A stretch of DNA of 64,000 nt from Microvirga arvi (GTDB lineage: Bacteria; Pseudomonadota; Alphaproteobacteria; Rhizobiales; Beijerinckiaceae). The position numbers were made by a program, and so were the translations under genes. Below the pieces are notes generated by a model. The model was not told where the DNA came from, made no database searches, and was given only the letters and a program-made list of their open reading frames with translations. Location of the stretch: positions 62,001-126,000 of the forward strand of contig NZ_JAFEMD010000014.1 in the NCBI RefSeq assembly GCF_016892765.1. The letters run 5' to 3'. Below are positions 14,502 to 28,176 of this stretch, piece after piece; positions within the stretch are counted from its first letter, which is position 1, and every line of letters starts with the position of its first letter.

Positions 14502-15575
14502 ATGTCGTCTGTCAGCTTCCGCAAGCTTGAGAAGAACTACGGTGCACTTCGGATCGTAAAGGGCATCAACCTGGAAATTGCCGACCGTGAGTTCGTGGTG
14601 CTGGTGGGCCCATCGGGCTGTGGCAAGTCGACGACCCTGCGCATGCTTGCAGGTCTCGAAAGCATCAGCGGCGGCGAGATCCGCATCGGCGAGAGGGTGG
14701 TGAACAAGTTGCCGCCCCGTGAGCGCGACATTGCCATGGTGTTCCAGGATTACGCGCTCTACCCGCACAAGACCGTTTATGAGAACATGGCGTTCAGCCT
14801 GAAGGTACGCGGAATTCCGTCTGCCGAGATCAAGCCGCGCATCACCCAGGCGTCCGAGATGCTCGGAATCACTCAGCTTCTTGAGAGGAAACCCAGCCAG
14901 CTCTCTGGCGGTCAACGCCAGCGCGTGGCCATGGGGCGCGCCATCGTGCGACGTCCCCAGGTATTCCTCTTTGATGAACCGCTCTCCAACCTGGATGCCA
15001 AGCTGCGCGGCCAGGTTCGCACCGAGATCAAGCGCCTCCATCAGGCCATCGGCACCACCATCATCTACGTGACCCATGATCAGGTGGAGGCGATGACCCT
15101 TGCCGACCGGATCGTGATCCTCAAGGGCGGTGAGATCGAGCAAGTCGGCACGCCGGATGAGGTCTACAACTCGCCAGCCAGCGTTTTCGTCGGCGGCTTC
15201 ATCGGCTCGCCTGCGATGAACTTCGCGAAGGGGACGATCCGCGGCGGACAGGTGATGTTCGATGGTGGGGCCGGCATTCCGCTCCAAGGCCACCTGGCCC
15301 TGAAACCCGGTGGCCTGGAGGGCCGTGATGTCATTGTCGGAATCCGGCCTGAGCACTTCATGCCGGCCGGCGAGGGCCATGCCCTGTCAGGCCAAGTGCA
15401 GGTTGTTGAGCCGCTAGGCTCCGACACGCTCATCCACTTCGCTCTTGGCTCGTCCATGCTGACGGCACGTGTCGCGCCGGAGATGCGGCCAAGCCCGGGC
15501 GAAACTCTCTCCATCGGTGTCGATCCATCACGAATCCACCTGTTCGATGCGGCAACGGAAAAGGCCCTCGTCTGA
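14502..15575 (+). CDS. sulfoquinovose ABC importer ATP-binding protein (UgpC/MalK type)
   Basis: A 357-residue ATPase with Walker [10 protein letters not shown] (about residue 37), signature [15 protein letters not shown] (about 133), Walker [19 protein letters not shown], switch His in [12 protein letters not shown], and a C-terminal MalK-type TOBE/OB regulatory domain ([11 protein letters not shown]). It is the first gene of a run of twelve same-strand genes. The leader holds a LacI operator and AGGGAGG just before the ATG. The sulfoquinovose substrate is inferred from the catabolic genes in the same operon. Confidence 0.93.
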
Positions 15576-15640
15576 AAAGCGCAGGTCAACAAAGGATGCC
15601 GGTAAGGAACCGACATTGTCAAACTTCCACGGAGGAAACG

Positions 15641-25918: not shown

Positions 25919-26689
25919 ATGTCAGTTGCGGAACTCATCGGTTTTCTCTTGCTGGCGGGCACTGCGGCCTATGCGCAGACCCTGACGGGCTTCGCCTTCG
26001 GCCTCATCACCATGGGCGGCGTCGGGCTGATAGGGCTTTTGTCTCTGCCTGATGCCGCCGTGATCGTGAGCGTGCTGACGCTCGTGAATGCCACGCAGAT
26101 GCTGCTGAAAGGCTGGCGCGATGTGGCGTGGCGAGAATTCGGCTTCGTCATGGCCGCCAGCATTCCGATGCTTTTTGTCGGCTATTGGCTGCTGGAGTGG
26201 CTTGCTGGAACCCGGGCCGATCTTCTGCGCCTGATCCTCGGATTCGTGATCATCGTCTCGAGCTTGCAGTTGGCGCGAAAGCCTGAGCCTTTGGCGAAGC
26301 AGTCGGGAGAGGGATCGTTCCTCTTCTTCGGTGCAATCGCCGGTCTCATGGGAGGGATGTTTTCAACCGCAGGACCGCCGCTCGTCTATCATTTCTACCG
26401 CCAGCCCGTGCCCCTGGTGAAGATCCGGGAAACCCTCGTCACCGTCTTTGCGCTCAACGCTGTTTTCCGCATCGGTCTCGTGGTGCTATCCGGCGATCTG
26501 CCGTCAGGCCCGAACCTGACGGGCCTTCTTGCCATTCCAGCCGTGATGAGCGCGACCTATCTGGCACGCCGCTGGCCACCTCCAGTTTCATCAAGTACGA
26601 TGCGCCGCATCGTGTTCATCCTTCTGTTCCTCTCAGGCGTGTCGCTCGCAGCGCCTGCTGCCATTCATCTATTTGGAGCTATGCCATGA
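25919..26689 (+). CDS. TauE/SafE family sulfonate exporter (probably sulfolactate)
   Basis: A 256-residue membrane protein with about 8 helices and the duplicated TauE/SafE pattern: AYAQTLTGFAFGLITMGG in the first repeat and AGLMGGMFSTAGPPLVYHFYR in the second. Members export sulfite, sulfoacetate or sulfolactate. Sulfo-ED leaves 3-sulfolactate, so this is the likely efflux route; the cell would take only pyruvate from each sugar. The start codon is 3 bp after the sulfoquinovosidase stop, and its end overlaps the aldehyde dehydrogenase by ATGA. Confidence 0.88.
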   Translation: MSVAELIGFLLLAGTAAYAQTLTGFAFGLITMGGVGLIGLLSLPDAAVIVSVLTLVNATQMLLKGWRDVAWREFGFVMAASIPMLFVGYWLLEWLAGTRADLLRLILGFVIIVSSLQLARKPEPLAKQSGEGSFLFFGAIAGLMGGMFSTAGPPLVYHFYRQPVPLVKIRETLVTVFALNAVFRIGLVVLSGDLPSGPNLTGLLAIPAVMSATYLARRWPPPVSSSTMRRIVFILLFLSGVSLAAPAAIHLFGAMP

Positions 26690-28176
26690 CTGCCCATGCT
26701 AAACCTTTGGATCGTCGTGTTGTGGAGTTGCGGGATACCTCGCTTTTGGTGGATCGGGCCTATGTGGCGGGTGAGTGGGTGGAAGCGCCGGACGGGCGTA
26801 CCTTTCCTGTCACCGATCCCTTCGACGGGGCTGTGATCGTCACCGTGCCTGATCTTGGCCCCGAGGTCGCAAGGCAGGCCATCGACACGGCTCACTCGGT
26901 GCAAAAGGACTGGGCACGGCGCACCGCCAAGGAGCGCAGCGCCATCCTGCGCCGCTGGTACGACCTGATCATCGCCAACGCCGACGACTTGGCCCTGATC
27001 CTCACCACCGAGCAGGGCAAGCCGCTTTCCGAGGCCAAAGGCGAGGTGATCTCGAACGCAGCCTACATCGAGTGGTTTGCCGAGGAAGCCAAGCGCATCG
27101 ATGGCGACGTGATCCCCGGCGCCACCCCGAGCCAGCGCATCGTGGTGCTCAAGCAGCCCGTGGGCGTATGCGCCGCCATCACGCCGTGGAACTTTCCCAA
27201 TGGAATGATCACCCGCAAGGTCGGCCCGGCGCTCGCCGCCGGTTGCACCATGGTTCTCAAACCCGCAGCCCAGACCCCGCTGTCGGCGCTTGCCCTGGCC
27301 GTGCTTGCCGAGCGGGCGGGTGTGCCGAAGGGCGCCTTCTCGGTGATCACAACCAATGACGCCAAGCCCATCGGTGAGGAGTTCTGCCACAACCCGAAAG
27401 TGGCCAAGATTACGTTTACCGGCTCCACTAATGTGGGCCGCTGGCTGATGCGTGAGGCGGGAGGCAGCATTAAGCGCCTATCGCTGGAGCTTGGGGGCAA
27501 CGCGCCCTTCATCGTGTTCGACGACGCGGATCTCGATGCGGCAGTGGATGGGGCGCTCGCGTCCAAGTTCCGCAATGCCGGCCAGACCTGTGTGTGCGCC
27601 AACCGCATCTATGTGCAGGAGAGCGTGGCCGAGGCCTTTGCCGAGAAGCTGGCCGAGAAGGCAAGAGGGCTGAAGCTTGGGCGTGGCACGGAATCCGGCG
27701 TGGCCATGGGGCCACTGATCGACGCGCGGGCCGTGGCCAAGATGGAGGAGCATGTGGCAGACGCGCTGGATAAGGGCGGGCAGATTCTGGTGGGCGGCCG
27801 CCGCTCGGTTCTAGGCGGCACGTTCTTCGAGCCCACCGTGATGACGGGCATCAACCAGAGCATGAAGGTGACGAAGGAGGAGACGTTTGCGCCCTTGGCA
27901 CCGATCATCACCTTCAAGGACGAGGCGGAGGTGATCGGGATGGCCAACGCGACGGAGTTTGGTCTGGCTTCCTACTTCTATGCCCGTGACATGGCCCGCG
28001 TGTGGCGGGTGGCGGAGGCATTGGAGAGCGGCATGGTAGGGGTGAACACGCCAGCGCTTGCCAACGAGATGGCGCCCTTTGGCGGCGTGAAGCAGTCAGG
28101 TCTTGGACGCGAGGGTTCCAAATACGGCATCGAAGGCTTCCTCGAAATCAAATACATAGCGCTCGCAGGAATGTGA
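26686..28176 (+). CDS. 3-sulfolactaldehyde dehydrogenase (GabD-like aldehyde dehydrogenase)
   Basis: A 496-residue aldehyde dehydrogenase of the NAD(P)-dependent succinate-semialdehyde type. It has the catalytic Cys in NAGQTCVCANR (about residue 305), the general base Glu in LSLELGGNAPF (about 270), ITPWNFPNGM and the cofactor loop TFTGSTNVGRWLM. In sulfo-ED it oxidises 3-sulfolactaldehyde to 3-sulfolactate. A plain GabD function cannot be excluded by sequence, but the ATGA overlap with the exporter and position at the operon end favour the sulfo-ED role. The second Cys next to the nucleophile (TCVC) is a variation of the family motif. Confidence 0.87.
   Translation: MTAHAKPLDRRVVELRDTSLLVDRAYVAGEWVEAPDGRTFPVTDPFDGAVIVTVPDLGPEVARQAIDTAHSVQKDWARRTAKERSAILRRWYDLIIANADDLALILTTEQGKPLSEAKGEVISNAAYIEWFAEEAKRIDGDVIPGATPSQRIVVLKQPVGVCAAITPWNFPNGMITRKVGPALAAGCTMVLKPAAQTPLSALALAVLAERAGVPKGAFSVITTNDAKPIGEEFCHNPKVAKITFTGSTNVGRWLMREAGGSIKRLSLELGGNAPFIVFDDADLDAAVDGALASKFRNAGQTCVCANRIYVQESVAEAFAEKLAEKARGLKLGRGTESGVAMGPLIDARAVAKMEEHVADALDKGGQILVGGRRSVLGGTFFEPTVMTGINQSMKVTKEETFAPLAPIITFKDEAEVIGMANATEFGLASYFYARDMARVWRVAEALESGMVGVNTPALANEMAPFGGVKQSGLGREGSKYGIEGFLEIKYIALAGM

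Follow-up and report, generated by a model that had tools for sequence, protein, structure and literature searches.

A probable LacI-controlled sulfoglycolytic Entner-Doudoroff operon of rhizobial type in Microvirga arvi

Introduction

Does a Microvirga species carry a complete pathway for the breakdown of the plant sulfosugar sulfoquinovose (SQ)? The question is raised by a 64,000-nucleotide stretch of the Microvirga arvi genome (hereafter the window), in which twelve plus-strand genes at positions 14502-28176 lie next to a divergent gene for a LacI-type regulator. A sequence-only reading had taken these genes for an operon of the sulfoglycolytic Entner-Doudoroff (sulfo-ED) pathway. Microvirga is a genus of soil and root nodules, and a literature search for sulfoquinovose together with Microvirga found nothing. 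Here, we conclude that the locus is very probably a LacI-controlled sulfo-ED operon of the rhizobial type. The conclusion rests directly on gene content, gene order, kinship, conserved residues, and conserved palindromes, from which we infer substrates, reactions, direction of transport, repressor binding, and inducer. The pathway itself is already known; a predicted operator pair and the history of the aldehyde dehydrogenase (ALDH) are additions to it.

Results

Operon proteins were compared by bit score with proteins of solved structure, as well as with Pfam and NCBIfam models. The GH31 protein (23912-25915) scored 1154 to 1156 bits with 5ohs/5ohy, entries named "alpha-glucosidase yihQ" that we take to be the sulfoquinovosidase (SQase) of Agrobacterium tumefaciens, and 768 bits with 5aed, an entry named sulfoquinovosidase; the best solved entry beyond the top six reached only 161 bits. 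The protein is closer to characterised SQases than to other GH31 enzymes. It carries K249, E274, R287, W290, and Y495, presumably the KERWY substrate motif of sulfoquinovosidases, and D392 and D459, which we take to be its two catalytic aspartates. The solute-binding protein (15596-16900) is likewise closer to SmoF, which binds sulfoquinovosyl glycerol, than to other sugar-binding proteins (646 bits with 7nbz/7ofy versus 225 for the next solved relative).

The short-chain dehydrogenase/reductase (SDR; 23140-23904; PF13561) is a predicted SQ 1-dehydrogenase whose best solved relative is the SQ 1-dehydrogenase 9gwu (311 bits versus 224 for the next). This entry was taken as the Pseudomonas putida enzyme because a constant offset brings the residue numbers given in PMC12133307 into line with it. 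The available part of that paper assigns residues to catalysis and to cofactor, sugar, and sulfonate binding; all ten that were checked are kept in the SDR, including both arginines on the sulfonate side. The ALDH (26686-28176; PF00171), a predicted sulfolactaldehyde dehydrogenase (SLADH), has 8c54 as its best solved relative, at 866 bits versus 659 for the runner-up. 8c54 is named a succinate semialdehyde dehydrogenase; we take it to be RlGabD because Cys295 of the RlGabD paper coincides with its catalytic cysteine. Nine of the ten positions discussed for RlGabD in the accessible text of PMC10599462 are kept in the operon ALDH, including Arg171 and Arg289, which that paper puts forward as sulfonate binders.

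The remaining catalytic genes were matched to sulfo-ED clusters at the level of the protein family. They encode an SMP-30 protein (22246-23127; PF08450; best solved relative 7plb, 188 bits), an HpcH/HpaI aldolase (20531-21340; PF03328), and an IlvD/Edd dehydratase (18787-20520; PF00920 and PF24877), predicted to be the sulfogluconolactonase, the aldolase for 2-keto-3,6-dideoxy-6-sulfogluconate (KDSG), and the sulfogluconate dehydratase, respectively. The start of the aldolase is best put at 20531 rather than at the first start codon of the open reading frame, 20252, because homology begins there. For the dehydratase, a tree was built from 37 sequences, comprising those of 30 hand-chosen fetched loci, the window, five paralogues from the same genome, and one paralogue from locus L023. 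A branch with 99% SH-aLRT support separates the 31 dehydratases of loci with an SQ dehydrogenase from the six paralogues. The tree was made by a quick method, several paralogues form long branches, and its sequences include no arabinonate or sulfogluconate dehydratase of characterised activity; it therefore speaks for a separate clade and not for a substrate. Overall, the sulfo-ED assignment is upheld by nearest solved relatives that are an SQase, SmoF, and SQ dehydrogenase, by the sulfonate-side arginines, and by the dehydratase clade.

The operon is completed by an importer ATPase of the UgpC/MalK type (14502-15575; NF008653, 492.1 bits, cut-off 432), two permeases (16955-17917 and 17914-18774; both PF00528), an aldose 1-epimerase that is a predicted SQ mutarotase (21386-22249; PF01263; TTG start as listed), and a TauE/SafE protein that is a predicted sulfolactate exporter (25919-26689; PF01925). 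The twelve genes are free of internal stops and make up one tightly packed operon. Their number, strand, and coordinates had been given correctly in the sequence-only reading, and its domain families are borne out by the Pfam matches; of its description of the genes as mostly overlapping, the tight packing stands and the overlap does not, as 3 of the 11 junctions overlap (by 4 bp each) and 8 have gaps of 3 to 54 bp. A hairpin with a 10-bp stem lies between the binding protein and permease 1 (16921-16946); the scan that gave it had, taken together, no clear excess over shuffles. Hairpins 3' of binding-protein genes are common in systems with a surplus of binding protein, and this one may have a role in the expression ratio of the importer parts. 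Scans of the operon yielded no clear excess of promoter-like elements (3 versus a shuffle mean of 3.2) or terminator-like elements (14 versus a mean of 10.3, standard deviation 3.6).

In the proposed pathway, the SmoF-type ABC importer would take up sulfoquinovosyl glycerol, SQ, or both, the GH31 enzyme would free SQ, and the epimerase would equilibrate its anomers. The SDR would then oxidise SQ with NAD+ to sulfogluconolactone, whose ring the lactonase would open, and the IlvD/Edd enzyme would dehydrate the resulting sulfogluconate to KDSG. Cleavage by the aldolase would give pyruvate, which is used, and sulfolactaldehyde (SLA), which the ALDH would oxidise to sulfolactate, with the TauE protein as its way out. 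Half of the carbon of SQ would thus be used and the remainder discarded as sulfolactate.

Several observations weigh against this assignment. Three NCBIfam models name other activities with scores above their cut-offs: L-arabinonate dehydratase for the dehydratase (932.5 bits, cut-off 882), alpha-glucosidase for the GH31 protein (969.1 bits, cut-off 553), and succinate-semialdehyde dehydrogenase (SSADH) for the ALDH (693.2 bits, subfamily cut-off 646.35). The SLADH position that differs is Ser189 of RlGabD, as numbered in the accessible text of PMC10599462, which is Ala in the operon ALDH. The substrates of the dehydratase and aldolase, like the pathway in M. arvi as a whole, are predictions from sequence. 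The model names, together with D-xylose 1-dehydrogenase as the best NCBIfam model for the SDR, would suit an operon for an ordinary sugar, namely, a non-phosphorylative Entner-Doudoroff pathway of the arabinose, xylose, or gluconate type whose glycosidase had been misread. However, the xylose dehydrogenase model stays below its cut-off (321.7 versus 400), the SDR keeps the sulfonate-side arginines, the GH31 and binding proteins have SQ-specific proteins as their nearest relatives by far, and the operon dehydratases stand apart from the six paralogues at the support given above. The name "araD" does not discriminate, as the equivalent dehydratase genes in the annotated clusters of Microvirga ossetica and Rhizobium sp. 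WSM4643 carry it as well. The sequence-only reading had singled out a grouping of the dehydratase, aldolase, and ALDH with arabonate/gluconate enzymes, together with a failure to grow on SQ, as the result that would speak against it; in part, and at the level of the NCBIfam names, such a grouping is seen. An ordinary-sugar operon was rejected on nearest relatives, residues, and the dehydratase clade, and we regard it as exceedingly improbable. Hardly more probable is an operon for sulfofucose, a galactose-configured sulfosugar degraded by a like pathway whose enzymes also include a PF13561 SDR, a lactonase, and an HpcH/HpaI aldolase, with uptake by an ABC importer, according to the accessible part of PMC12421959. 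The same text places the sulfofucose dehydratase SfcF in the enolase superfamily and states that no PF00920 dehydratase was found in that genome, whereas the M. arvi operon has an IlvD/Edd dehydratase and a GH31 protein nearest to sulfoquinovosidases. No enolase-superfamily dehydratase (PF13378/PF02746) occurs among the twelve operon genes, and one such protein is encoded on contig C109 of this genome. Sulfofucose was rejected because of the dehydratase family, the residues, and the nearest relatives.

The fate of sulfolactate within the proposed SQ pathway has two candidate answers. Export through TauE appears likelier than breakdown, in which sulfolactate would be degraded by enzymes encoded elsewhere in the genome and TauE would export sulfite. 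Breakdown would be in keeping with a split SAF/GD_AH pair on C109 (106 and 399 amino acids; L096; L097:3843-12546), which has a two-subunit layout resembling that of SuyA/SuyB and lies in a TRAP transporter locus whose scanned neighbours include an enolase-family protein, a zinc alcohol dehydrogenase, an SDR, and RraA. This pair is one of two PF04295 entries in the genome; the other is a full-length altronate-dehydratase-like gene on C22, about 5.5 kb from one of the genome's three genes of Ldh_2, the family of ComC. On the other side, none of seven xsc matches in the genome lies above the cut-off, and no Ldh_2 gene was present among the scanned neighbours of the C109 pair. The only NCBIfam match of that pair is galactarate dehydratase, far below its cut-off. 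Its two closest relatives among 40 of 316 plasmid records (74 to 77%) are unannotated there, and the next plasmid relatives (about 36% identical) are named UxaA family hydrolase or altronate dehydratase. Breakdown is therefore considered unlikely. The absence of sulfolactate-breakdown genes, pointed out in the sequence-only reading, holds for the scanned genes of the window and, genome-wide, for xsc; for SuyAB-type lyases, the data point neither way.

To the left of the operon, the LacI/GntR-type repressor gene (13184-14242, minus strand; Pfam LacI and Peripla_BP_3) is separated from the first operon gene by 259 bp. Divergent LacI relatives head many related loci. Within this intergenic region are two palindromes, spaced by 139 bp and each built around AGCGCT, which are predicted to be operators: TTCGTAGCGCTACGAT on the LacI side (14254-14269) and ATCGTAGCGCTATGAT on the operon side (14393-14408), 93 bp 5' of the first start codon. 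The region between LacI and ATPase genes could be extracted from 44 loci, counting the window and two plasmids. All 44 had the operon-side site, ATCG[TC]AGCGCTA[TA][GT]AT, and each had at least two AGCGCT cores, where single-base shuffles of the window region average 0.064; the 44 regions are related and therefore not independent. Within the window, a 14-base motif with up to 2 mismatches matched only at the two operator sites, giving 4 matches over both strands where 0.56 are expected, a count that 1 of 100 shuffles reached. With up to 1 mismatch, the motif was found genome-wide at both operator sites and at C164:20218, the last of which is within chance. Counting against the operator assignment, the genome-wide total was 3 per strand versus 5 per strand for a reversed control pattern; the case for the operators therefore rests on conservation. 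The divergent repressor would probably sit on the two palindromes until a sugar of the pathway releases it, and its regulon is probably this operon alone. In a literature search for sulfoquinovose with LacI and operator, the matches concern Escherichia coli, as judged by their titles.

Related loci were collected with the SDR sequence, and the best 80 of 135 matches were analysed; the set is therefore not a census, and some loci stop at contig ends, which bears on all gene counts. Genes for the dehydratase, aldolase, SDR, and GH31 protein were present together in 62 of the 80, and 40 had these four and all four ABC genes, usually with the order conserved and a divergent LacI gene in front. TauE was also found in 38 of these 40, and a forward ALDH gene in 18. 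The grouping of the operon genes is not due to chance. Several named Microvirga species have an SDR with 91% identity to the M. arvi one. Across the genus, matches to the SDR at E <= 1e-80 occur in 28 of 48 genomes, M. arvi counted. Among Microvirga loci, 15 of 19 have the SmoF-type importer and 10 of 19 the epimerase. In a record of M. ossetica that carries a like cluster, the source is given as nodules.

In 8 of the 80 loci, the SmoF-type importer is replaced by another ABC system and a second, distant GH31 gene (Microvirga L011, L013, L014, and L018; Jiella/Aurantimonas L040, L043, L046, and L054). A plasmid copy in M. ossetica (L099:1-22366) has the same replacement module, with a second GH31 protein of 792 amino acids, beside uxaC and uxuA and followed by glpK, glpD, and a mannitol-dehydrogenase-family gene. 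Glucuronosyl-glycerol and sulfoquinovosyl-glycerol are head groups of plant lipids, and this variant may combine the use of both. The M. arvi genome has no close copy of the second GH31 gene, the sole match being the operon GH31 gene at 30%. One genome of the genus (G019) has two SQ-dehydrogenase genes (C1:2151382 and C3:488185), one per cluster type; the C3 gene shares its coordinates with the M. ossetica plasmid copy. The four Jiella/Aurantimonas loci keep the SDR and sulfoquinovosidase, and no IlvD/Edd or aldolase relative was found in the fetched stretch; SQ may take another route there. Relatives of glpK occur in 22 of the 80 loci, which would fit the release of glycerol from SQ-glycerol. 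Six Rhizobium-type loci (L022, L024, L026, L029, L039, and L061) carry glpK as well as a second HpcH/HpaI aldolase gene downstream of TauE, the latter 41 to 44% identical to the first, and no ALDH relative was found there. In Rhizobium sp. WSM4643 (L100:1694-2752), a gene for an LLM-class flavin-dependent oxidoreductase, conceivably a desulfonating monooxygenase, adjoins the LacI gene of the cluster.

Among known systems, the sulfo-ED operon of Rhizobium leguminosarum SRDI565, reported in 2020, is said to comprise an ABC importer, an SQase, an SDR, a lactonase, an IlvD/Edd dehydratase, an HpcH/HpaI aldolase, and a GabD-type SLADH. Gene order was compared with two Rhizobium plasmids. Both plasmids have the same order (LacI, ATPase, binding protein, permeases, dehydratase, aldolase, lactonase, SDR, GH31, TauE, and ALDH) and lack the epimerase gene that M. 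arvi has between aldolase and lactonase. The A. tumefaciens sulfoglycolytic SQ monooxygenase (sulfo-SMO, also sulfo-ASMO) cluster contributes the SmoF and SQase nearest to the M. arvi binding protein and GH31 protein, the solved entries being, as we assume, A. tumefaciens proteins; unlike that cluster, the twelve genes include no monooxygenase and encode sulfo-ED enzymes instead. The sulfo-ED pathway of P. putida SQ1 uses the same enzyme families according to the available parts of two reviews (PMC9594981 and PMC12890257). Its proteins were compared through the SQ dehydrogenase only (9gwu, as taken above), which is the best solved relative of the SDR and shares the ten checked residues with it; unlike P. 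putida SQ1, M. arvi has a SmoF-type ABC system for import. The sulfofucolytic Entner-Doudoroff pathway of Paracoccus wurundjeri Merri, as far as given in the available part of PMC12421959, has the SDR, lactonase, HpcH/HpaI aldolase, and ABC importer in common with M. arvi, whose operon differs in its IlvD/Edd rather than enolase-superfamily dehydratase, its sulfoquinovosidase-type GH31 protein, and its lack of SuyAB, ComC, and SlcC.

The ALDH was surveyed in the 48 genomes at E <= 1e-150, with partial matches and the M. arvi genome included. Genes 78 to 92% identical to that of the operon were found in 42 of the 48, and matches of 50 to 60% formed a separate group. Its assignment to the sulfo-ED pathway is challenged by the distribution of this close ALDH, which was present in 25 of the 28 genomes with SQ dehydrogenase and in 17 of the 20 without; being equally common in both, it is not pathway-specific in the genus. 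The ALDH adjoins the SDR in 7 of the 28 (G000, G006, G019, G023, G024, G041, and G044); the assemblies of the remaining 21 show none next to the SDR, although contig ends and short pieces may hide it. M. arvi has a second copy on contig C164, adjoining a class-III aminotransferase gene and a LysR gene, with 91.1% protein and 85.8% DNA identity to that of the operon. The operonic copy and the unlinked one agree at 99.87% over 1489 bp in G041 (4 contigs), at 100% over 1491 bp in G019 (6 contigs), and at 99.93% over 1486 bp in G044 (1 contig). In all three, identity stops within about 10 bases of the gene ends, which suggests gene conversion or recent copying. In an ALDH tree, made by a quick method, with long branches and with the copies of G007, G014, G027, G033, and G045 left out, the seven operonic rows need seven changes (at least five by the starred branches), no fewer than in shuffles. 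These data fit either gene conversion with repeated loss or repeated insertion, of which the former is likelier because the operonic ALDH likewise follows TauE in Rhizobium.

The unlinked copies were also viewed in their contexts. That they are always genes of a gamma-aminobutyrate operon was rejected, as an aminotransferase gene adjoins in just 5 of 24 contexts and is not beside the unlinked copies of G041 and G019. A different upstream neighbour, which by eye has the look of an amino-acid-type binding protein, is shared by 17 of the 19 other contexts. The M. ossetica cluster L099 suggested that a GAPN-type ALDH might stand in for the SLADH; this does not apply to M. arvi, where the best match has 31% identity.

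Elsewhere in the window, a second ABC importer (binding protein, permeases, and ATPase) followed by an endonuclease/exonuclease/phosphatase-family gene occupies 8131-13020 on the minus strand; related loci gave only 31 to 35% matches to its ATPase. A third, sugar-type importer (37752-43475, minus strand) has a Lyase_1/argininosuccinate-lyase-like protein within it (38822-40762) and adjoins a ROK-family gene (43538-44812). A respiratory block at 48228-63474 on the plus strand encodes a molybdopterin oxidoreductase, an Fe-S protein, and NrfD-like subunits, and then cytochrome oxidase subunits II and I.

Discussion

The ALDH of this operon may not belong to a dedicated lineage within the genus. 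It is quite possible, though short of probable, that the operonic gene is interchangeable with the unlinked GabD-type copy, that the two are kept alike by repeated conversion or recopying, and that the operonic copy is often absent. According to the accessible part of PMC10599462, RlGabD is active on SLA and about 30-fold less so on glyceraldehyde-3-phosphate, and a term search of the main text turned up no assay with succinate semialdehyde. Literature searches that combined sulfolactaldehyde, GabD, and succinate semialdehyde dehydrogenase found nothing, and a search for sulfoquinovose with gene conversion found nothing on ALDH copying, its one match concerning, by title, an archaeal protein modification.

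A complete predicted sulfoquinovose pathway is now placed in Microvirga, and the conserved palindrome pair makes the regulation of rhizobial-type sulfo-ED operons readily testable. If the proposed history of the ALDH is true, one enzyme would serve both sulfosugar breakdown and another pathway, such as the oxidation of succinate semialdehyde. The distribution of the gene suggests that the SLA-oxidising step can come from outside the cluster, so that surveys demanding a local SLADH would miss carriers; in the assemblies of this genus, 21 of the 28 genomes with SQ dehydrogenase showed none next to the SDR.

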